Positions 8,150 to 20,836 of a stretch of DNA of 64,000 nt are shown here, one piece after another. The DNA lies in contig NZ_FRBF01000017.1 in assembly GCF_900142545.1 (NCBI RefSeq), forward strand, positions 1-64,000, in the 5' to 3' direction. A program made the position numbers and the translations under genes. A model generated the notes under the pieces. That model saw only the letters and a list, made by a program, of their open reading frames with translations. It searched no databases and was not told where the DNA came from. How positions within the stretch are numbered: position 1 is the first letter of the stretch; each line of letters begins with the position of its first letter. This DNA comes from Fibrobacter sp. UWT2 (GTDB lineage: Bacteria; Fibrobacterota; Fibrobacteria; Fibrobacterales; Fibrobacteraceae).

Positions 8150-8207
8150 TTTAGTATTGCTCTGAAAAAAATATATATTGGATTATAGAAAATAAAGAGG
8201 AAAAATA

Positions 8208-9362
8208 ATGCTTGATAATCCATTGATTTCAATAATAATGCCTGTTTATAACGCAAAACGGTTTCTTGAAAGTGCGATTGAAAGTATTTTATCTCAAAGT
8301 CTTGAAAATTTTGAATTAATTTTGATTGATGACGGCTCTTTTGATGGTAGTGCGTCTATTTGCGATGATTTCGCCAAGCGAGATTCCCGTATCATTCTTG
8401 TGCATCAAAAAAACATGGGGACATCGTTTGCTCGAAATGTTGGGTTGAAAATGGCGAAAGGAAAATATGTTGCCTTTTGTGATCATGACGATGAATTCTC
8501 TCCAGAAATGCTAAAATCAAATTATGAAATAGCTGAAGAATATAAAGCAGATGTCGTGTGCTGTTCTGTAAAAATATTTTATCCTCGAGACGAGGGAACT
8601 TTCATTCATACTTTATCTCAGCCAACCAAGGTTTACGGTCTAAACTCTCGTTCAGAACTCGTTATAGATTTAAAGTACAATAATAACACTTTGTTTGGCT
8701 ACGTATGGAACCATTTATATCGTAGAGATGTAATTGAAAATTTAAAATTCGATGTAAGATTTAGGCATGGTCACGAAGATCAGGTTTTTAATTTATGTAC
8801 GATTAATCACTTAAAGGGAAATTTTGTTTTTAATGAATCTACTTTCTACAAACATTATAGTCGACTAAATTCATCTAGTAAAACATTTGATAAAGAAATC
8901 AACAAAACTATTCAAGAAGATCTTATCCTTTTTGATTATGAGTATAATTTTGCAATCAAATACGGAAATTGTCATCAAGTGAATGGAGGGCACGTTTTGG
9001 CATCTCATTTGTACGCATTGCATTATCGTAGCTGTTTTAGATATCAACGAGAATTCAAGGCTGTTAGAAAGTGTGATTATATAAGTAAATACCCTCTTCC
9101 GCTGACAATGGCTGAAAAAATATTGTTGTTTAGTTTTAGAAAAGTATATCCGCTATTTAAGGTGTTGTGTGGGATGAATTGGGCTCGTTATATCCCTGGT
9201 AAAAAAGAAATGATATTGTCGTCAAACGGAAGTGATTTCTGGGAAAGTCCGTTATGTAGTTTTTTTTGGAATCTTTATGCTTCAAGCCGAGGCCGTTGGT
9301 TATTTAGTATATGCAATACGATCGTTCGGATTGTATTGATTCCTTTTAATATTTTGAGATAA
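8208..9362 (+). CDS. Family 2 glycosyltransferase
   Basis: A 384-residue GT2 enzyme with the N-terminal ISIIMPVYNAKRFLESAI, LIDDGSFDGS, and the acidic AFCDHDDEFS motif near residue 92. A ribosome binding site (agagg) lies 8-10 nt upstream of the ATG, and a TATATT box at 8174-8179 may be its -10 element. The C-terminal 130 residues have no clear domain. Its last 17 nt overlap the convergent wzt gene. It is AT-rich like the other transferases of this locus. Confidence 0.85.
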   Translation: MLDNPLISIIMPVYNAKRFLESAIESILSQSLENFELILIDDGSFDGSASICDDFAKRDSRIILVHQKNMGTSFARNVGLKMAKGKYVAFCDHDDEFSPEMLKSNYEIAEEYKADVVCCSVKIFYPRDEGTFIHTLSQPTKVYGLNSRSELVIDLKYNNNTLFGYVWNHLYRRDVIENLKFDVRFRHGHEDQVFNLCTINHLKGNFVFNESTFYKHYSRLNSSSKTFDKEINKTIQEDLILFDYEYNFAIKYGNCHQVNGGHVLASHLYALHYRSCFRYQREFKAVRKCDYISKYPLPLTMAEKILLFSFRKVYPLFKVLCGMNWARYIPGKKEMILSSNGSDFWESPLCSFFWNLYASSRGRWLFSICNTIVRIVLIPFNILR

Positions 9363-10626
9363 GTTGACATAGTTTTAACCATTTGCAGTGAAAAAGTGAT
9401 CTTTTTATTGATCCTTCTTCGTCAAAAGGATTTCCAAAATGATTAGATCCTTGGTGTATGGTGAAATCTAACTCACTTAGATCGGTTGTGTAACACTTGA
9501 CATTTCTTTCAGCAATATCAAATTTAATTTTATAATCGCCTGCGGCCAAGGTGAATGCGGGAATTTCAAATTCAATGTGGTAGCTTCCTGGCTTAAGAGA
9601 GCTTTCTTGAGAATCTTCGTTGTAATCACATCTAGCAATTGGCGTCCCAAAATTGTTGCAAATGTTAAAGCCGGCAACAAGGGATCCGATGTTTCTTTTT
9701 ATGGTAAAATCTGCTTCAATTATTATTATTGAATCTACAAAAAAATTTTGATTGTGATTTTTATTTCGAATGCATGCTTTATTTAAATATAAGACTTTGG
9801 GGTCCCCGTCAGTTCCGTTAAATTCGGAACAATAATTATTTTGACTTAGGTAAAGTTCTATAGCTTGATTTGTGTTCCCTTGATATTTTATTTGCCCTGA
9901 ATCCAATGCAATCCCTTTTGTGCATAGACGTTGAATGCTGTCCATATTGTGGCTCACGAACAGCACCGTTCTGCCTTCGCCGCGGCTTACGTCCTGTATC
10001 TTGCCGATGGCCTTCTTCTGGAATTCGGCGTCGCCCACGGCAAGCACTTCGTCCACCACGAGGATTTCGGGTTCCAGGTGAGCTGCGATGGCGAACCCGA
10101 GGCGCACGGTCATGCCGCTGCTGTAGCGTTTCACGGGGGTGTCCAGGTAGCGTTCGCATCCGCTGAAGTCCACGATTTCGTCGAGTTTGCGGGTAATCTC
10201 GGCGCGGCTCATGCCCATGATGGCGCCGTTCATGTAGATGTTCTCGCGACCGGTCATTTCCGGGTGGAATCCTGTGCCCACTTCGAGGAGGCTCGCGATG
10301 CGGCCCCGTGCGCGGATGGTGCCGGTGGTGGGGGCAGTCACGCGGCTCAGTAGCTTGAGAAGCGTACTCTTACCGGCTCCGTTCCTGCCGATGATTCCCA
10401 CGACGTCGCCCTGTTCCACTTTAAAATTGATGTCTTTCAGGGCCCACACGTATTCGCTGTCGCCCTTGTGTGCGCGATCGTTGACTTCGCCCACCTTGAG
10501 ATAGGGGTCCTCGCGGCGCAGCACCTTGGTCTGCCAGAACCTGTTCAGGTCGTGGCTGAGCGTCCCGGTGCTCACTAGCCCCAAACGGTACTGCTTGCTG
10601 ATGTTTTCAAACTCGATCGCGGTCAT
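9346..10626 (-). CDS. wzt: Polysaccharide ABC exporter ATPase with C-terminal glycan-binding domain (Wzt-type)
   Basis: A 426-residue ATPase of the ABC-dependent O-antigen/capsule export pathway. Residues 1-240 form the nucleotide-binding domain: Walker A GIIGRNGAGKSTLLKLL near 83, signature YSSGMTVRLGFAIA near 165, Walker B LVVDEVLAVGD near 190 and the switch His in VSHNMDSI. Residues 265-426 form a beta-rich domain like the Wzt C-terminal carbohydrate-binding domain, which in E. coli O9a decides which glycan is exported. Base composition changes abruptly at the domain boundary near 9955: the ATPase half is GC-rich, the binding half AT-rich. A TATATT box ends 7 nt before the ATG, with no Shine-Dalgarno sequence. 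Confidence 0.9.
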   Translation of the reverse strand: MTAIEFENISKQYRLGLVSTGTLSHDLNRFWQTKVLRREDPYLKVGEVNDRAHKGDSEYVWALKDINFKVEQGDVVGIIGRNGAGKSTLLKLLSRVTAPTTGTIRARGRIASLLEVGTGFHPEMTGRENIYMNGAIMGMSRAEITRKLDEIVDFSGCERYLDTPVKRYSSGMTVRLGFAIAAHLEPEILVVDEVLAVGDAEFQKKAIGKIQDVSRGEGRTVLFVSHNMDSIQRLCTKGIALDSGQIKYQGNTNQAIELYLSQNNYCSEFNGTDGDPKVLYLNKACIRNKNHNQNFFVDSIIIIEADFTIKRNIGSLVAGFNICNNFGTPIARCDYNEDSQESSLKPGSYHIEFEIPAFTLAAGDYKIKFDIAERNVKCYTTDLSELDFTIHQGSNHFGNPFDEEGSIKRSLFHCKWLKLCQLISKY

Positions 10627-10658: not shown

Positions 10659-12317
10659 TTATTTCTTTTTTTGAAGTAAAATGCTCTCGTATATCAGATG
10701 ACTGGACATTTTATTTATTTCTTTGTTCAGAGAATCAAGCCCAATGCTTTCGACAAGTGTTTTTTGACTGCTAAAAAGGTCTGTGCCGAATCCGAGTCTG
10801 TCCCCATTGATATTGAAATCCATTGTGCTGAGGATAGTTGGAAACATATCTATGTCAGAAAAGAGTCGTACTTCATTTGAGGTAGGAGCCTTTGGAGAAT
10901 TTATAAAAATATTGATCCATTTTCTGTTTTTGAATCCTTTTACTAAACGGGTTCCCATGAAAAGGTGGTCTCCAAAGATTATGATAGATGTATTTTCATA
11001 AAAAGGTTTAGCCTTTATTGAAACCAGAAATTTGCTGAGTTCTCTTGATGCGCAACGTACGGATGCTTTAAGGAGCTCATCTTCGTTCTTTTCGTCGAGA
11101 CTTTTTATACAGTTGGGGTCATAAAATCCGTGGGGCGAATGGGTGTCTATAGTGAAAAATGTTAGTGTGAAAGGTTCTGATATCGTATCAAGAATTTGAT
11201 TGGCTGCCTTAAAAACGTCTTTATCATGAACAGATTTAAACAATTTGCTTTTTGTAAGATTTGTTGTATCTAAGTTTAGCCTTTGTATTAAATCGTCGGG
11301 ACCGTAAACTTCATTTATTTTTTGATCTGTCATAAAATTTCGAAAGCCATTGTAAAAACCAGAATTCCCTTGAATGAATATCTGCTTGTAGCCATTATTG
11401 TTAAGAATTTTATAAAGGCTTTTGTAATGGTGTAATATGGGGGTCTTTTTATAGTTGGCGATATCGGGAATTCCTAAAGAACGCGTAATCATTGCCCCAA
11501 ATGTAGAGCTAGAACCGATTGCGTCGAACCCGCCACCGATGTTTTTTTTGATTCTACCAAAGCTTAGATTTTGTTGCGCTAATTCTGTAATTTCAGGAAT
11601 AAGATTGATGTCTTGGTTGCCACCGTGTTCTTTGTCAGAGAATGTTGTCTCGAGAGATTCTAAATATATTAGAATTAAGTTTTTTTTCTGTTCGGGTGCT
11701 GTAATTTTGACGGAGTCGGGGTTGACATAGTTTTCTGCAAAGAACTTTGAGTAGATTGCGTTTTTTTCGGGTTCATTGTTTATGATGTGTATGTAATCGG
11801 ATGTTGGAATGACGCTGATAAAGAGAACTATAGTGGCTGCAAAGTATGTTCCTATGACGAACAGCCTTGTCTTTGTGCGGTTTAAAACTGTATATAAGAA
11901 AATGGTTAGGATTGCCGTTATGATTAGTGCCTGAGGGATAGTCGTGGTCAGGTACAATTTGACCATGCCGTAGGCGAAGTCGTCAAATGGCTCCTGCAGG
12001 GTAAGGAAAACAGTGTTTGCATCCCTAAGAGGAAAAGTGTTTAACGCCCAATAAATTCCAGCTCTTAGATGAACTGCTAAAAAAAGTAGAACGGTTATGA
12101 GTAGAATGTGGGATGGTTTAAAATAGTTTTCTTTCTTATATGTTTGGGTGTACCAATTTAAAGCAATAAGGACAAAAAAGGATAGTATGAATGTTGGCGA
12201 AATGGCTAATGGCTCTATCTCAAAAAAATAGTGTTCTGCAATAAAAAAGAGGCTCACTACTATTGTGACTATTTTTGCCGGCAGAATGATTATGTTCTTC
12301 ATCTTGCTTTTTTGCAT
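10659..12317 (-). CDS. Membrane-anchored sulfatase/phosphoglycerol transferase, LTA-synthase-like
   Basis: A 552-residue protein with about five N-terminal membrane helices (residues 5-160) followed by an extracytoplasmic alkaline-phosphatase-superfamily domain. Visible motifs are LILIYLESLETTF, where Thr is the likely nucleophile, FFTIDTHSPHG, and IIIFGDHLFMG for metal binding. This is the architecture of LtaS and of OpgB/MdoB-type enzymes that move phosphoglycerol or phosphoethanolamine onto glycans. It is strongly AT-rich and sits between the GC-rich wzm and wzt genes on the same strand, so it looks like an insertion into the exporter operon. It probably decorates the exported glycan. Confidence 0.8.
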   Translation of the reverse strand: MQKSKMKNIIILPAKIVTIVVSLFFIAEHYFFEIEPLAISPTFILSFFVLIALNWYTQTYKKENYFKPSHILLITVLLFLAVHLRAGIYWALNTFPLRDANTVFLTLQEPFDDFAYGMVKLYLTTTIPQALIITAILTIFLYTVLNRTKTRLFVIGTYFAATIVLFISVIPTSDYIHIINNEPEKNAIYSKFFAENYVNPDSVKITAPEQKKNLILIYLESLETTFSDKEHGGNQDINLIPEITELAQQNLSFGRIKKNIGGGFDAIGSSSTFGAMITRSLGIPDIANYKKTPILHHYKSLYKILNNNGYKQIFIQGNSGFYNGFRNFMTDQKINEVYGPDDLIQRLNLDTTNLTKSKLFKSVHDKDVFKAANQILDTISEPFTLTFFTIDTHSPHGFYDPNCIKSLDEKNEDELLKASVRCASRELSKFLVSIKAKPFYENTSIIIFGDHLFMGTRLVKGFKNRKWINIFINSPKAPTSNEVRLFSDIDMFPTILSTMDFNINGDRLGFGTDLFSSQKTLVESIGLDSLNKEINKMSSHLIYESILLQKKK

Positions 12318-12372: not shown

Positions 12373-13221
12373 TTACACTGTATCCATGAAGGTGCGCTGG
12401 ATCTTGTTGAAGACGATTACGCCGAGTGCTAAGATGAAGGCGGCGAAGCCGGCGGTGTAGCCGAGGGCGGCCCAGCTGAATTCTCCTACGCCAAGCATAC
12501 CGAACTTGAATGTTTCCATGATGCTGGTGAGTGGGTTCGCCTGCATCATCATTTTCAGGCGCGGGTCTTCGATGGTGCTGAGTGGGTAAATCACTGGCGT
12601 TGCATACATCCAGAGTTGCACGATAAACGTAAGTAAGAAAGTCAGATCGCGGTATTTGGTGGTGAGGCTGCTGAACAGCACGCCGAATCCGAGTGCGAGT
12701 GCCGCGATTAGCACAATAAGGATTGGCGTGAGTAGCAGGTAAATATTCGGGTGCACCGGGGCGTCAGTAAAAATCAGGTAGTACGCAAATACAATCAGGA
12801 ATAGTCCCATCTGGATGCTGAGTCGCACCAGGTTGCTTGTGACGGTTGCGAGGGGCACGACGAGTCGCGGAAAGTACACCTTGCCGAACATGTTCGCGTT
12901 TTCGATGAACGTTTTACTGGTCTGGTTCAGGCATTCCGAAAAATAGGTCCACAGGCAAATGCCCGCGAGGTAAAAGAGCGGTTGCGGGAGTCCGTCGGTA
13001 CTGATTTTGGCGATGCCGCCGAATACGACCATGAACATGATGGTGGTCATGATGGGCTGGATAAAGAACCACAGCGGACCGAGAATGGTCTGCTTGTACC
13101 AGGTGACAATGTCGCGCTTCACGAACATACGGTACAAATCGCGGTACTGCCAAAGTTCATCGAAGTTTACCGAGAGTAGGCTTGCTTTGGGTTTAATGAC
13201 GGTGGTCCATTGTGTATCCAT
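12373..13221 (-). CDS. wzm: Polysaccharide ABC exporter permease (ABC-2 type, Wzm-like)
   Basis: A 282-residue membrane protein with six predicted helices. The N-terminal segment LWQYRDLYRMFVKRDIVTWYKQTILGPLWFFIQP is the hallmark of ABC-2 polysaccharide permeases of the KpsM/Wzm/RfbD class (residues 20-55). With Wzt it would export a lipid-linked glycan across the inner membrane. The ATG at 13221 is chosen because the family starts close to this point and upstream codons overlap the divergent gene. A TATATT box lies 9 nt before the ATG with no Shine-Dalgarno sequence. It heads the minus-strand exporter operon. Confidence 0.92.
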   Translation of the reverse strand: MDTQWTTVIKPKASLLSVNFDELWQYRDLYRMFVKRDIVTWYKQTILGPLWFFIQPIMTTIMFMVVFGGIAKISTDGLPQPLFYLAGICLWTYFSECLNQTSKTFIENANMFGKVYFPRLVVPLATVTSNLVRLSIQMGLFLIVFAYYLIFTDAPVHPNIYLLLTPILIVLIAALALGFGVLFSSLTTKYRDLTFLLTFIVQLWMYATPVIYPLSTIEDPRLKMMMQANPLTSIMETFKFGMLGVGEFSWAALGYTAGFAAFILALGVIVFNKIQRTFMDTV

Positions 13222-13246
13222 ACGTGATAAAATATATATTTCTCGT
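13222..13246. promoter_or_regulatory. 25-bp divergent start region with shared TATATATA core
   Basis: Only 25 bp separate the start codons of wzm (minus) and the membrane-protein gene (plus). The centre is aatatatatt, giving a TATATT box 9 nt before one ATG and another 6 nt before the other. If both act as -10 elements, transcription would begin at or next to the start codons and both mRNAs would be leaderless. Confidence 0.45.
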
Positions 13247-14944
13247 ATGCCTTTTAAACGTGCATTTTTATATTCGGTCGCAATCAATCTGTTCTTTTTG
13301 GTGCTTTGCCTTGTTTTTGGCGACATCAAGTTCGGGGCTGTAGACGACTATTTTATGGCGGCGGTACTGACCGGTGCCCATGGCACCGATTATAACCCGC
13401 ATCTGCTTTTTGTGAACGCTGTTTATGGCTACGCCTTGTTGCCGCTGTACCACTTGTTCCCCAAGGTGGGGTGGTATTACATTGGCGAAATGTTTGCGGT
13501 GTTCGCGTCTTTTACGGCTGTCGGCTATGTGCTGTTGCGGCGGTGTGGCGAACGTTGGGGGCTTTTGCTGGCGATGCTTTTTACAGCCATGTTCGCTAGC
13601 GATTTTTATTTGGTTATTCAGTTTACGCAGTGCGCTTCTATTTTGAGTGCGGCGGGAATGCTGTTGTTTGCACATGGCTTGGTAGATTGCCGCGCCCCTA
13701 AAGTGGCTCGGCATGACATTGTCGTTGTAGTGCTGGGTGTTTTGCTGTTGCTTTGGGGCTCCGTGATGCGCTGGCAGGTCTTTTTGATGGGAACGCCGTT
13801 CTTTTGCGTGGGGTTGCTGTTTAACCTGAAACTGTGTTGGAAGTTTAAGTGGGTGACGGTGACAGGCCTTACAGTGATGTTTGCGGGGGCGTACGCCATG
13901 CACCATTTTGATGCTTCGCTGTATAGAAATGCGGAGTACGCACCTTATGTAGATATTCAGGGGCCGCGCGCTGCTTTAGGTGAAGCATCCAATTATAATC
14001 AGAATGCCGTGTATGAAGATCTTGAAGAGATGGGTAAGTCCGGTGTTGATTACCACATGCTTACCGAATGGATGTTTTATGATACAGAAACGTTCGCTGT
14101 TGACAGTATGCGTGCCATTATCGATGTAGTCGGTAATTATCGTGATAAAATAGAACGGGGCGGTATCCCGCAGCGATTGCTGAGTGCGTTGGGTCATTCA
14201 CTACATTCGCCGCTGTTTTGGACATGGTTCATTTTCTGCTTGCTGATATGTGCGACCAATCGTCAAAAGTTTCTGTATTTGTGGGCGAATTTTGCGGTGA
14301 TTTTGTACTTGATGTCTATGTTGCTTGCTATGAACCGCCTGGTGTACCGTGTAGAAAGCGGCTTCTGGCTTTACGCGGCGGTACTTGCGGTGCCGTTGTG
14401 GGGGCGATTCCGCTATGAGTTGCCGCGCAAGTTGGTGGTTGTTGCGTTGTCTGTGATTGCTCTTGCGAATGTGTATACCTATGCAACTAGTGGAGAGTTG
14501 GTGCGCGGTCCGAGTTCGGGCGAACTCCGTACCTTGGCTATTGAAGATTCTACGGACTACGACCAAGTATTTGCCTATATCGATAGCCAGCCGGACAAGA
14601 TGTTTTTGTTGAGCATGAACGCTTATATGCGTTTTAGCCACCACAAAAATCCGCCTTATTTGGCGGAGCCCATTGGCAGCTACCGCCGCACGGTGTCTTT
14701 TGGTTACTGGACACCTTACCTGCCGGAGATTACTCAAGCGCTTGCGGAGTTCGGTATCACGAACCCTATTAAAGATGTGGTGCATGACAACGTGATTGTG
14801 ATTAATGAAGGTAATTTGGCGAAATTTTTGCAGCGGCATTACTATGATAGCGTTGCGGTGGATACTCTCAGGGTTATCGGTGAAATGGAATTCTTCAAGT
14901 ACCGCTTGGTTGAGGCTGACTCTGCGGCAAAGGAGACTGAATAA
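13247..14944 (+). CDS. Polytopic membrane protein of unknown function
   Basis: A 565-residue protein with about ten hydrophobic helices: residues 8-28, a cluster between 50 and 210, and more between 330 and 410. The remainder (about 415-565) is a soluble domain. The layout resembles oligosaccharyl or lipid-linked sugar transferases of the GT-C type, but no catalytic motif was recognised with certainty. The start at 13247 is chosen because the upstream sequence belongs to the divergent wzm gene. It overlaps the next gene by 1 nt (TAATG), so the two are translationally coupled and probably act together at the membrane. Confidence 0.7.
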   Translation: MPFKRAFLYSVAINLFFLVLCLVFGDIKFGAVDDYFMAAVLTGAHGTDYNPHLLFVNAVYGYALLPLYHLFPKVGWYYIGEMFAVFASFTAVGYVLLRRCGERWGLLLAMLFTAMFASDFYLVIQFTQCASILSAAGMLLFAHGLVDCRAPKVARHDIVVVVLGVLLLLWGSVMRWQVFLMGTPFFCVGLLFNLKLCWKFKWVTVTGLTVMFAGAYAMHHFDASLYRNAEYAPYVDIQGPRAALGEASNYNQNAVYEDLEEMGKSGVDYHMLTEWMFYDTETFAVDSMRAIIDVVGNYRDKIERGGIPQRLLSALGHSLHSPLFWTWFIFCLLICATNRQKFLYLWANFAVILYLMSMLLAMNRLVYRVESGFWLYAAVLAVPLWGRFRYELPRKLVVVALSVIALANVYTYATSGELVRGPSSGELRTLAIEDSTDYDQVFAYIDSQPDKMFLLSMNAYMRFSHHKNPPYLAEPIGSYRRTVSFGYWTPYLPEITQALAEFGITNPIKDVVHDNVIVINEGNLAKFLQRHYYDSVAVDTLRVIGEMEFFKYRLVEADSAAKETE

Positions 14945-16161
14945 TGAAACTCCTTTACCCGTTGATTGCAAGCGCCCTTATTACCATTGTGCCCTTCTTG
15001 CTGACTTTTGAAAAGGGGCAAGACATTGTTCGTGGACTCTTCGGCTTTGAAGAATTCTGCTTGCTGATGCTTTTTGTTCTAGCGAAAAGTTTTAGAAGGT
15101 TGCGGTGGGTGCTGCTGCCGGTGATTGGCGCGGCGATGGTGGTTGTCGCTTGGCTGGATTTGCAAAACTTGCTCGCCATCAAGGGCTGGTCTACGGGCTG
15201 GTACGGCGTGTTGCCTTTTGTGACTTGCGGCCTTGCCGTAGCCATGATGTGGAAAGTGAAACCTTTCAGCGCGAGTGCCATTTCGTTCATCCTCTTTGTG
15301 GCGTTGATGGCGCACTTGTTTGCCTATAACCATTATGCGGCGCAGCCTTTAGCGCAGTTCCCGGTGGTGGACTATGCGAGTCGTACGGCACCCAAGCCGA
15401 TTGCTCGCGACAGCTTGCCGGAATCGTTCAAGGCGAAATATTTTACGACCGATTCGGCAACAATTACGCGAGGCTTTGTCGATTCGACTAAGACGAATGT
15501 GCTGGTACTTGTTGAAAGCTGGGGAATCCCGTTAGATACGAATCGCTTTGCAAAGCAGTTGCGAATTTTTGAAGGAATCTCGATGCAGGTGGGGGCGCAC
15601 CACCGCATGTATAGCCGCACAAGGACCGCCGAACGTGAAGACTTGATTTATAGCGTCACGCGCGATTCAACGGGCCGCCGCGATACGGTGTTCTTACCGC
15701 AGGTGCTGCGGGCGCAAGGCGTAAAGACGCAGTTTATTTATGGCGGCGATAGCCTAGTGCAAATGCGCAACAAGTACATTCGTAATGTTGGCTTTGACGA
15801 GGTCTTCTACGGCGCTTCGGGTAGTTCGGGCGCTGAGCCTCGCGCAGATCATGAGTCAGTTGCGTTGCTTGATAGCTTGCTGAATGTACAGGATCCCACC
15901 TTGCGTTTTATCGCCTGGACTACGCTAGACACCAAGTTCCCGCTGCAGGGTTTCAAGGATCCTTACAGGATTGATGCTGCTGCTGTGGATTCTGCTTATA
16001 CCGAACGCCTTGCAGGTACACTGCAACTGATTGCTAACCTTGCGAAAAAGCACCCGAATGTTCGCTTTATTGTACAAGGCGACCATAACCCCATACTTTC
16101 TCCGTTAAAATTCCAAGAGAAATTCTACAAACGCTGGGTCCCGTTCGTGGTGCTGAATTAG
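14944..16161 (+). CDS. Membrane-bound sulfatase-like enzyme (alkaline phosphatase superfamily)
   Basis: A 405-residue protein with about five N-terminal membrane helices (residues 3-130) and a compact extracytoplasmic domain. Motifs are VLVLVESWGIPLD, with a conserved Glu of the metal site, FIAWTTLDTKFPL, and the C-terminal FIVQGDHNPIL metal-binding segment. It is shorter than typical LTA synthases. Translational coupling (TAATG) to the upstream polytopic protein points to joint action, perhaps transfer of a phospho-alcohol to a surface glycan. A sulfatase or phosphoethanolamine transferase activity is possible. Confidence 0.7.
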   Translation: MKLLYPLIASALITIVPFLLTFEKGQDIVRGLFGFEEFCLLMLFVLAKSFRRLRWVLLPVIGAAMVVVAWLDLQNLLAIKGWSTGWYGVLPFVTCGLAVAMMWKVKPFSASAISFILFVALMAHLFAYNHYAAQPLAQFPVVDYASRTAPKPIARDSLPESFKAKYFTTDSATITRGFVDSTKTNVLVLVESWGIPLDTNRFAKQLRIFEGISMQVGAHHRMYSRTRTAEREDLIYSVTRDSTGRRDTVFLPQVLRAQGVKTQFIYGGDSLVQMRNKYIRNVGFDEVFYGASGSSGAEPRADHESVALLDSLLNVQDPTLRFIAWTTLDTKFPLQGFKDPYRIDAAAVDSAYTERLAGTLQLIANLAKKHPNVRFIVQGDHNPILSPLKFQEKFYKRWVPFVVLN

Positions 16162-16213: not shown

Positions 16214-16239
16214 ACATTTTGTTAAGTGAGGACAATTGT

Positions 16240-17364
16240 ATGAAAAATCCGTTTATTTTGGTTCCGTATGAGAATAAATTCCTGTTTTGCGATCGTGAAA
16301 CAGAAACGGAAAATATTCTTGACGATTTGCTAAATGGGGTTAATGTCACACTGATTTCTCCACGAAGATTGGGCAAGACAGGATTGATATACAGGGTGTT
16401 CGATGAATTGGCTAAGAAGGAACCTTCTGTTATTAAATGCTATTGCGATATTTATTCCGCAAGTAACGTTGAAGATTTTATCAAACTTTTGGCCGAAGCC
16501 GTTGTGAAAAATGTTCAAGATAAATCAATTTTAAAAAAATTCTTTTCGGCGTTTGGCGGTGTACGACCGTTATTGTCATACGACTCTATTTCAGGGACTC
16601 CGCAAGTTACAATTACTTATCAGAATGATAAACAGAAAGAAACCTCGATAAAAGAAATCTTTGATTTTTTAGGAAAGCAAAAAAAGAAAATAGTCGTTGC
16701 AATAGACGAATTTCAAGAAATCCGCAATTTCAAGGATGTTAATATGGAAGCTCTACTCCGTACCTACATTCAACCTTTGAAAAACGTGCGTTTTATTTTT
16801 TGCGGAAGTAAAAAACATGTGATGACAGACATGTTTACAAACGCCAAAAGTCCTTTTTATGAAAGTACCCATTGTATTTATTTAGGCAAAATTGAGCACG
16901 ATAAGTATGTTCGTTTTATTAAAAAATTATTTGTAATGGGCAAATTTACAATAGATGACGAAAGTTTGGATTTTATTATGGAATGGACTCGGGGACATAC
17001 TTTTTATACGCAGAGTCTGTGCCATCGAATTTTCAAAATTTCAACAGGAGCCATTGGTTTAGAGACGGTAAAAAAAGCTTGTGCACAGCTTTTGGATGAA
17101 GGAATTCCTGGATTCTTGGAACGGCGTAATTTGATTACGGATAAACAATGGCTTTTTTTGAAAGCCGTTGCGAAAGAAGGTTGTGTGTCGCAACCGACTT
17201 CTGGCGCATTTATATCTAAATACAAGCTGGGAACCTCTGCAGCAGTAAAGAGAATTGTTGAGTCCCTTGTCGATAAGGAACTTTTGCTGGAAGAACTTTC
17301 GCTCGAAGGAAAAAGCTATTCTGTTTACAATGTTTTTATGAGCCGCTGGTTAGAAAGACTGTAA
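16240..17364 (+). CDS. AAA ATPase of the archaeal-ATPase-like family
   Basis: A 374-residue P-loop ATPase: Walker A LISPRRLGKTGLI near residue 40, Walker B KIVVAIDEFQEI near residue 150, sensor-like FIFCGSKKHVM near 190, and a C-terminal winged-helix-like region (about 290-374). PRRxGKT is typical of the prokaryotic ATPase_2 (PF01637-like) family, whose cellular roles are mostly unknown. Many copies per genome are common in Bacteroidetes-type anaerobes. The ATG at 16240 is preferred over an upstream TTG because gagga precedes it. It is monocistronic with its own promoter, convergent with the next gene. Confidence 0.75.
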   Translation: MKNPFILVPYENKFLFCDRETETENILDDLLNGVNVTLISPRRLGKTGLIYRVFDELAKKEPSVIKCYCDIYSASNVEDFIKLLAEAVVKNVQDKSILKKFFSAFGGVRPLLSYDSISGTPQVTITYQNDKQKETSIKEIFDFLGKQKKKIVVAIDEFQEIRNFKDVNMEALLRTYIQPLKNVRFIFCGSKKHVMTDMFTNAKSPFYESTHCIYLGKIEHDKYVRFIKKLFVMGKFTIDDESLDFIMEWTRGHTFYTQSLCHRIFKISTGAIGLETVKKACAQLLDEGIPGFLERRNLITDKQWLFLKAVAKEGCVSQPTSGAFISKYKLGTSAAVKRIVESLVDKELLLEELSLEGKSYSVYNVFMSRWLERL

Positions 17365-17365
17365 A

Positions 17366-18313
17366 TTAGAAAGTTCGTTCACGCACCACGTATTGCGGCG
17401 ACTGGTTGATGCTGATGTAGATGCGGCCCACGTATTCGCCGATGAGTCCGAGCAAGAGCATAATCATACCGCCCACGAACAGGAGTGTGGCGAGCATGCT
17501 GGTGTAGCCCACGGGAATTTCGGGATTGAGAAATTTCTGGTAGACGACGTAGAGGCCCGCGAGAAATCCTACGAGGGCGCAGATAACGCCAATAAAAGTC
17601 GCGGCGCGGAGCGGCTTGACGGAGAATGCGGTAAAGCCGTTGATCCAGAGCCCGATAAGGCCTGCGATAGTGTAGCCGGAGCGGCCTTCGAGGCGGCGGC
17701 GGTGTTGCACTTCGACGTTGCCCAGATTTTTTGTGGCGCGGAAAACGAGCCCGCTAATGTAGGCAAACGGGTTGGGGTAGCGCACGATTTCATCGACGAT
17801 GAACTTGCGCATAATAAAGAAACTCGTTGTGCGAAGCGTCTTGGGCTGGCCAATAATCGCTTCGGCCATTTTCTTGTTGACCCAGGTGCCAAAACGGCGG
17901 AACAGGTGCTGCGCCGAGTGTTCGTAGTAGCCGTAAACGACGTCGTAGCCTTCTTCTAGTTTGTCTACAAGCTTGAAACTTTCGCTGGCGGGGGTTTGGC
18001 CGTCGTCATCGAGGCTGATGATGTAGTCGCCGGTGGCCTGGCCGTAGCCTGCCATTAGGGCACTGTGTTGCCCGAAATTCTTGGCGAGGCAGATTCCTTT
18101 AATCTTGTTGTCGGCGGCGGCGAGTTTCTTGATGACTTGCCATACGCCATCGGGGCTGCAGTCGTTTATCAGGACGATTTCGTAGTCGAAGGACTTGCCG
18201 TCGGAGCCGTTGCCTGCTGCGTTGCGCGCGGCCACGGTGTCGCGGATTTCTTGCACCACGGTTTCGATGGTGTTTTCGCTGCGGTAACAGGGAATGACAA
18301 AAGAGAGTTTCAT
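17366..18313 (-). CDS. Family 2 glycosyltransferase, ArnC/GtrB/DPM1-like, membrane-anchored
   Basis: A 315-residue polyisoprenyl-phosphate glycosyltransferase: N-terminal LSFVIPCYRSENTI, LINDCSPDG, the YIISLDDDGQTPAS catalytic acidic motif near residue 100, and FFIMRKF. Two C-terminal membrane helices lie around residues 235-300. Enzymes of this type load a sugar onto undecaprenyl phosphate for periplasmic glycan modification. Its start codon directly abuts the stop codon of the upstream oxidoreductase gene with no gap, so it is the third gene of an ATP-grasp/oxidoreductase/transferase operon. Confidence 0.88.
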   Translation of the reverse strand: MKLSFVIPCYRSENTIETVVQEIRDTVAARNAAGNGSDGKSFDYEIVLINDCSPDGVWQVIKKLAAADNKIKGICLAKNFGQHSALMAGYGQATGDYIISLDDDGQTPASESFKLVDKLEEGYDVVYGYYEHSAQHLFRRFGTWVNKKMAEAIIGQPKTLRTTSFFIMRKFIVDEIVRYPNPFAYISGLVFRATKNLGNVEVQHRRRLEGRSGYTIAGLIGLWINGFTAFSVKPLRAATFIGVICALVGFLAGLYVVYQKFLNPEIPVGYTSMLATLLFVGGMIMLLLGLIGEYVGRIYISINQSPQYVVRERTF

Positions 18314-20697: not shown

Positions 20698-20749
20698 GAT
20701 GTAAACAATATATCTTTTTTATGCCTGAAAAATATATATTTTCTGCGTT

Positions 20750-20836
20750 ATGAAGATTCCATTCAACAAGCCGCCGTTCGTGGGGCTCGAACTCGATTAT
20801 GTGAAGCAGGCCGTCGAAAGCGGCTTTTTGTACTAA
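20750..20836 (+). pseudogene. Truncated 5' end of a wecE-type aminotransferase gene
   Basis: Twenty-eight codons from ATG to a stop. Residues IPFNKPPFVGLELD and the following YVKQAVESG are identical to the start of the intact aminotransferase at 25074. Over 23 aligned codons there are 11 base differences, all synonymous. Homology ends after ESG. The upstream TATATT box (20735-20740, 9 nt before the ATG) is retained. The fragment is divergent from the ATP-grasp gene exactly where an intact wecE would be expected, so it is probably the original or a second copy broken by the inserted FISUMP block. Confidence 0.85.

Follow-up and report, generated by a model that had tools for sequence, protein, structure and literature searches.

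The 25-bp gap between wzm and a divergently oriented membrane protein gene, both surface-polysaccharide genes of the rumen bacterium Fibrobacter sp. UWT2, is probably a minimal bidirectional promoter from which both genes would be transcribed leaderless or nearly so, wzm having taken over the -10 signal of a neighbouring cassette without regulated alternation between the two directions. The gap, the rarity of its palindromic core, a leaderless gene class, the conservation of the core with the membrane protein gene, its changing partners and the gene order were established by sequence comparison; from these we infer the actual transcript starts, the use of the core by wzm and the order of events. 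The genes concerned lie as follows in the 64,000 nucleotides that were analysed (the window), with the evidence for each feature in brackets.

9346-10626, minus strand: wzt, export ATPase (profile matches)
10659-12317, minus strand: phosphoglycerol transferase or LTA-synthase-like gene, downstream of wzm (profile matches)
12373-13221, minus strand: wzm, ABC-2 polysaccharide export permease (PF01061, E 4.3e-22; Wzm/RfbD model below cut-off)
13222-13246, no strand: intergenic gap, the whole shared control region (sequence and ORF list)
13230-13241, no strand: palindromic core AAATATATATTT, a 12-mer of perfect symmetry (sequence, motif counts, locus comparison)
13247-14944, plus strand: GT-C-fold membrane glycosyltransferase of 565 aa (AlphaFold model, structure matches)
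14944-16161, plus strand: sulfatase-fold gene, overlapping the stop of the GT-C gene and travelling with it (weak PF00884 match below cut-off; synteny)
16237-17364, plus strand: ATPase_2 gene, end of the plus-strand cassette (profile match; junction)
17366-18313, minus strand: gtrB-like polyprenyl-phosphate sugar synthase, directly preceding wzm in other genomes (profile matches)

As in the preliminary description, the boundary is divergent and 25 bp long, with the ATG of wzm at 13221 on the minus strand, that of the membrane protein gene at 13247 on the plus strand and the gap at exactly 13222-13246. It reads CAT (13219-13221), ACGTGATA, AAATATATATTT, CTCGT and ATG (13247-13249), i.e. 8 bp, the 12-mer and 5 bp, with aatatatatt at 13231-13240. 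Longer mechanical ORFs exist on either side of the gap (TTG 13329 and TTG 13007); both starts are plausible. MPFKRA at the plus start aligns with relatives, and the minus ORF is the ABC-2 permease listed above. Allowing at most one mismatch, AAATATATATTT occurs at four sites of the window (two exact) compared to 0.17 expected, a number reached by none of 100 shuffles, and only three exact sites were found in the 3.49-Mb genome. Across 61 Fibrobacter genomes, 110 sites were counted vs 28 for the reversed 12-mer, with at least one site in 46 of the 61, and the exact arrangement CAT-N8-AAATATATATTT-N5-ATG was detected in six of them, in one copy each and always where a GT-C gene begins. The boundary arrangement is more than chance. 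The second exact copy in the window (within 20730-20835) lies 8 nt before a 28-codon ORF, whose frame continues in locus L081; the ORF, which has no Pfam match, resembles the start of what we take to be a DegT/WecE-like aminotransferase. The third genomic copy (C11:81475) lies before an unrelated, leadered lipoprotein/hydrolase-like gene. A search of a plasmid collection with 13100-13400 gave no match, and plasmid carriage of the boundary is thus unsupported.

Candidate -10 signals were read from a sample of 464 kb (20 stretches plus the window), of which the near-random portion covers 400 kb of the 3.49 Mb. Inspected by eye, six of its eight tRNA genes have TAnnTTTG at -10, three of these as TATATTTG, and an exact TTGACA 17-18 bp upstream in three of the eight. 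Upstream of called genes TATATTT was the top-enriched 7-mer (39 vs 4.05), a value that serves as a guide only, as the gene caller is poor at starts (13301 was given for the GT-C gene); the spacing counts from TATATTT to ATG and the whole-genome counts are independent of it. When TATATTT-N{d}-ATG was counted for ATGs opening ORFs of at least 100 codons in the 464 kb, a peak appeared at d=5 (seven cases) and d=6 (five), with 0-4 cases at any other d from 0 to 59 and none at d=0-4. The degenerate TAnnTTT gave 18 cases at d=5 and 17 at d=6 (next highest 12 at d=18), and the reversed or complemented words showed no peak at d=5/6 in the same sample. The position of this peak suggests a leaderless-gene signature as in other bacteria, where TA-led leaderless genes are described as having little or no 5' UTR and a -10-like signal some 12 bp in front of the coding region (PMC3160421). 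Counted over the whole of this genome without gene calling, TATATTT-N5-ATG occurs 41 times vs 2 for the reversed control, and over the 61 genomes 2,249 times vs 254; at d=13 the corresponding numbers are 559 and 278. The d=5 count exceeds the d=13 count in all 61 genomes, each of which holds between 16 and 61 strict d=5 sites. Judged by these counts, TATATTT is the best candidate -10 signal in this organism, and its occurrence 5-6 nt before ATG marks a predicted genus-wide class of leaderless genes. All six genomes sampled from five further genera of the family showed the signal too, pointing to a family-wide class, and it was weaker or absent in most of the remaining phylum sample. A literature search on Fibrobacter transcription starts found no such study, and the class is apparently undescribed in the literature searched.

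Applied to the boundary, this signal predicts the following elements; a promoter-like site inside the GT-C gene, which is discussed below, is included.

13235-13240, plus strand: predicted -10 hexamer TATATT of the GT-C gene (TATATTT to 13241), 5 nt before its ATG (d=5/6 spacing peak)
13231-13236, minus strand: predicted -10 hexamer TATATT of wzm (TATATTT 13236-13230), 8 nt before its ATG (motif scan, geometry)
13247, plus strand: predicted transcription start of the GT-C gene, the A of its ATG, leaderless (geometry)
13224, minus strand: predicted transcription start of wzm, 3-nt leader (geometry)
13253-13258, minus strand: weak -35-like TTTAAA of wzm, in codons 3-4 of the GT-C gene (promoter scan)
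13389-13416, minus strand: rival promoter-like site of wzm, TTCACA-16-TATAAT, inside the GT-C gene (11/12 consensus match)

In front of the GT-C gene TATATTT-CTCGT-ATG places the signal at -12 to -6, the leaderless spacing, and with its end exactly 5 nt ahead of the ATG, the predicted first nucleotide of the mRNA is the A of the start codon. On the minus strand, TATATTT-TATCACGT-ATG predicts that the wzm message begins about 3 nt ahead of its ATG; the d=8 of this signal lies outside the d=5/6 peak (two matches at d=8 in 464 kb). The two hexamers overlap by 2 bp, T13235-A13236, the sharing of bases that characterises a bidirectional promoter, so that the -12T/-11A pair of the plus strand is the -11A/-12T pair of the minus strand, and a 7-nt spacing from -10 to start would put the two starts 23 bp apart. 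A good -35 is lacking on both sides. None is recognisable for the plus gene at 16-18 bp, where a canonical sigma-70 promoter would have it (13212-13217 at 17 bp), and for wzm the TTTAAA at 13258-13253 has a spacing of 16 bp to the -10 and an overall consensus match of 9/12. No Shine-Dalgarno sequence precedes wzm or the GT-C gene. The geometry agrees with the preliminary description in three respects: sequence comparison supports aatatatatt as a -10 box for each gene, as far as predicted starts go; two polymerases could not occupy the core together, given the shared T13235-A13236; and -35 elements would indeed fall inside the opposite coding regions (13212-13217 in wzm, 13258-13253 in the GT-C gene). 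We propose that AAATATATATTT offers TATATTT to the housekeeping RNA polymerase on both strands, with initiation at the A of the GT-C ATG in one direction and about 3 nt ahead of the wzm ATG in the other. With 5' ends at or beside the start codons, neither a leader nor a Shine-Dalgarno sequence would be needed, and the gap could be as short as two back-to-back -10 boxes.

We were interested whether the core follows the GT-C gene or wzm, and 51 GT-C loci (L002-L052; L002 is the window locus and was counted) were collected, of which 33 with a readable GT-C 5' end were compared. Left out were copies of the same contig (L034, L038, L040, L041, L044, L045, L048, L049 and L050), the distant or unresolved loci L022 and L026-L031, and L018, whose 5' end is missing and whose other piece is L052; L047 is listed and was not counted. 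After assignment of the locus classes by hand, TATATTT was found 4-7 nt before the ATG in 24 of 26 GT-C genes that have no co-directional gene in front, whatever the upstream context, and in none of the seven that lie behind a co-directional gene (Fisher p 8e-6, with related loci). The exceptions among the first-gene loci are L011 and L019, the latter with TAACTTT at this position. This distribution assigns the core to the GT-C gene as its predicted promoter. A divergent ORF begins 22-26 bp away in 17 loci, and all 17 carry TATATTT on the opposite strand as well, at d 5-9 before the ATG of that ORF. The divergent partner is wzm in six loci, a GT4 gene in seven, a GT2 gene in two, a GT32-like gene in one and an ORF of about 50 codons and no assigned family in one. 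Where no divergent ORF begins at such a distance, the left half AAATATA is kept in two of nine loci (read by eye), the other seven having the GT-C half only or neither half. Collapsed to seven partner/gap classes, the comparison gives 7/7 vs 2/9 (p 0.003), and 6/7 vs 2/9 for the exact 12-mer AAATATATATTT (p 0.04), in a test that was framed after viewing the data and with loci that are related. Among the five wzm-adjacent loci with a 25-bp gap the core is invariant in all five, and variation affects 0 of 12 core positions vs 6 of 13 flank positions (p 0.015). Both genes stand at 5 nt in L006, which would be a fully symmetric leaderless pair 22 bp apart if its GT-C gene starts at the upstream ATG, and in L046 the core is kept though the partner is 51 bp away. 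A scan of about 1.0 Mb (mostly GT-C or wzm loci, with the 400 near-random kb included) for AAAnnTAnnTTT flanked on either side by an ORF start at d 5-9 (minimum ORF length 50 codons) gave such pairs only at GT-C boundaries. L051 and L042 keep the 25-bp gap and carry pieces of other ORFs that separate the GT-C core from a truncated or shifted GT4 gene; one of these pieces resembles a HipA_C-matching gene of L008.

The origin of the wzm promoter is suggested by the gene order. In nine of 28 wzm loci wzm follows directly behind gtrB on the same strand. In the window, both genes are on one strand as well and are split by a 4.1-kb plus-strand cassette (GT-C, sulfatase-like and ATPase genes), whose last stop codon is one base from the gtrB stop, and in four other genomes gtrB, the GT-C gene and wzm are all on one strand, without the -10. 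From the adjacency of gtrB and wzm elsewhere and the reversed cassette between them here, wzm probably took its promoter from the cassette. The core would belong to the GT-C gene and travel with it; once the reverse-oriented cassette lay between gtrB and wzm, wzm would have been without the gtrB operon promoter and most likely came to use the other side of the symmetric -10. On the simplest reading, wzm would thus have been severed from its operon by the reversed cassette, whose symmetric -10 stepped in. The LTA-synthase/phosphoglycerol-transferase-like gene (10659-12317) sits between wzm and wzt; L033 has different DNA there.

The AlphaFold model of the plus gene (pLDDT 86.5, pTM 0.85) led to a more precise assignment. 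Its best 32 matches in VIA-align, with Z from 7.9 to 11.7 and ArnT at 10.4 over 414 residues, are what we take to be GT-C enzymes, with Pmt4, DPY19, ArnT and OST as the best matches (Z 9-12); a Z below 13 is modest for a helical protein. With Foldseek the best E-value was 2.8e-3, none reaching 0.001. A profile search with the gene and its relatives assigned no Pfam family of its own, and PMT_2 matched at 4e-5 in one of 20 relatives. As modelled, the protein has the GT-C membrane fold. Together with the gtrB-like gene in its neighbourhood, this makes modification of the exported glycan, dependent on polyprenyl phosphate, its most likely role. As in known gtrB/GT-C modification genes with Wzm/Wzt export, a GtrB-like synthase, a GT-C-fold transferase and Wzm/Wzt are found in one locus; unlike there, these genes are shuffled in order and orientation from one Fibrobacter genome to the next.

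This assignment bears on the suggestion of the preliminary description that the two operons set export against membrane modification and may be expressed alternately. The plus gene is better described as a GT-C-fold glycosyltransferase that likely works with export in one surface glycan pathway, for which co-expression with wzm would make at least as much sense as alternation. Alternation itself found no support, as one direction hardly affects the other in the E. coli cases described (PMC12825309). There, basal transcription from five E. coli bidirectional promoters, whose starts lie 10-23 bp from each other, is reported to be too low for competition; altering one direction barely changed the other, and competition was seen only under strong one-sided activation (PMC12825309). 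By analogy, alternation would not be the default expectation and would need strong activation of one side; both directions are probably active in the same cell, with one polymerase at a time and without regulated alternation.

Other readings of the gap have to be weighed against a shared promoter. We consider it rather unlikely that the core promotes the GT-C gene only and that wzm depends on a start within the GT-C gene (about 160 nt of leader) or on read-through from gtrB. Of all sigma-70-type matches from 8 to 18 kb, the site at 13416-13389 scores best (11/12), and it is present in four of the five wzm-adjacent loci with a 25-bp gap; however, it is made by codons for conserved residues (DYN...FVN), its TATAAT also occurs in L035 and L011, both without an adjacent wzm, and in the wzm-adjacent L033 its -11A is lost by a synonymous change while the intergenic core is intact. 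Read-through from gtrB would have 4.1 kb of antisense to cross. An exchange point, where recombination at the AT-palindrome swaps the divergent neighbours and the similar gaps are breakpoints, would account for upstream sequences that are unrelated between loci up to the core, for the conserved side from core to ATG, and for the inserts between the core and the GT4 gene in L051 and L042. We regard it as improbable, as the core keeps a constant 5 nt from the GT-C ATG, which is the leaderless spacing seen across the genome, and as GT-C copies inside operons, which moved as well, lack the motif; exchange is nevertheless compatible with a bidirectional promoter, and both can hold.

AT-rich start regions aid initiation in related phyla, and neither gene has a Shine-Dalgarno sequence, which fits a core that merely keeps the start regions unstructured for Shine-Dalgarno-free translation, with the promoters elsewhere. 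The strand and spacing specificity of the signal, the reversed word being unenriched, and the presence of TATATTTG before tRNA genes, which are untranslated, make this very improbable. Hardly credible to us is an operator for a surface-glycan regulator, in spite of the perfect 12-bp symmetry and of two of the three genomic copies lying in this polysaccharide locus: without a close divergent gene the left half is lost and the GT-C half stays. A specific operator or regulon was rejected as the main reading, the third copy (C11:81475) preceding the unrelated leadered gene mentioned above.

The bidirectional promoter that we favour resembles known systems in part. Promoters with a symmetric -10 are described for E. 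coli and Salmonella (PMC12825309; PMC10268837), defined by starts 7-25 bp apart, with 18 bp commonest in E. coli and 10 and 23 also common (PMC12825309). The Fibrobacter boundary would share with these the symmetric -10, opposite starts at a predicted 23 bp and two mRNA genes of a linked pathway; compared with the accounts in these papers it differs in messages predicted to be leaderless or nearly so, a gap no longer than the core, a divergent partner that changes between genomes, and a promoter predicted here from sequence. With TA-led leaderless genes as described (PMC3160421) the GT-C gene has in common a -10-like signal roughly 12 bp ahead of its start codon, the signal being TATATTT and not TANNNT; Fibrobacter is absent from the main text of that study. 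In Deinococcus-Thermus expression is reported to need little more than a -10 box close in front of the ORF, by a few bp, with weak dependence on a -35 (PMC12340547), and the Fibrobacter -10 is likewise only a few bp away from the ORF; unlike here, the main text of that work contains no divergent or bidirectional use.

Both bidirectional -10 promoters and leaderless genes have been described separately, and here they would be combined in the smallest possible form, leaderless or almost so on both sides, with one core facing at least four unrelated annotated partner families. A tentative and possible extension is that the GT-C cassette is mobile in Fibrobacter surface-polysaccharide loci and has a symmetric leaderless promoter at its front end. 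The outward face of the 12-bp palindrome would then be a ready promoter 22-26 bp from the start codon of any head-to-head gene, so that partners (wzm, GT2, GT4, GT32-like) could be swapped with expression kept, i.e. promoter capture by symmetry. If true, this would explain the immediate expression of glycan-locus genes that are moved or severed from their operon, and the influence of promoter symmetry on the evolution of gene order would become open to testing. Another divergent pair of the window, 58 bp apart (8150-8207), contains AAATATATATTG at 8169-8180, and its plus gene has a leader with a GAGGAA stretch.
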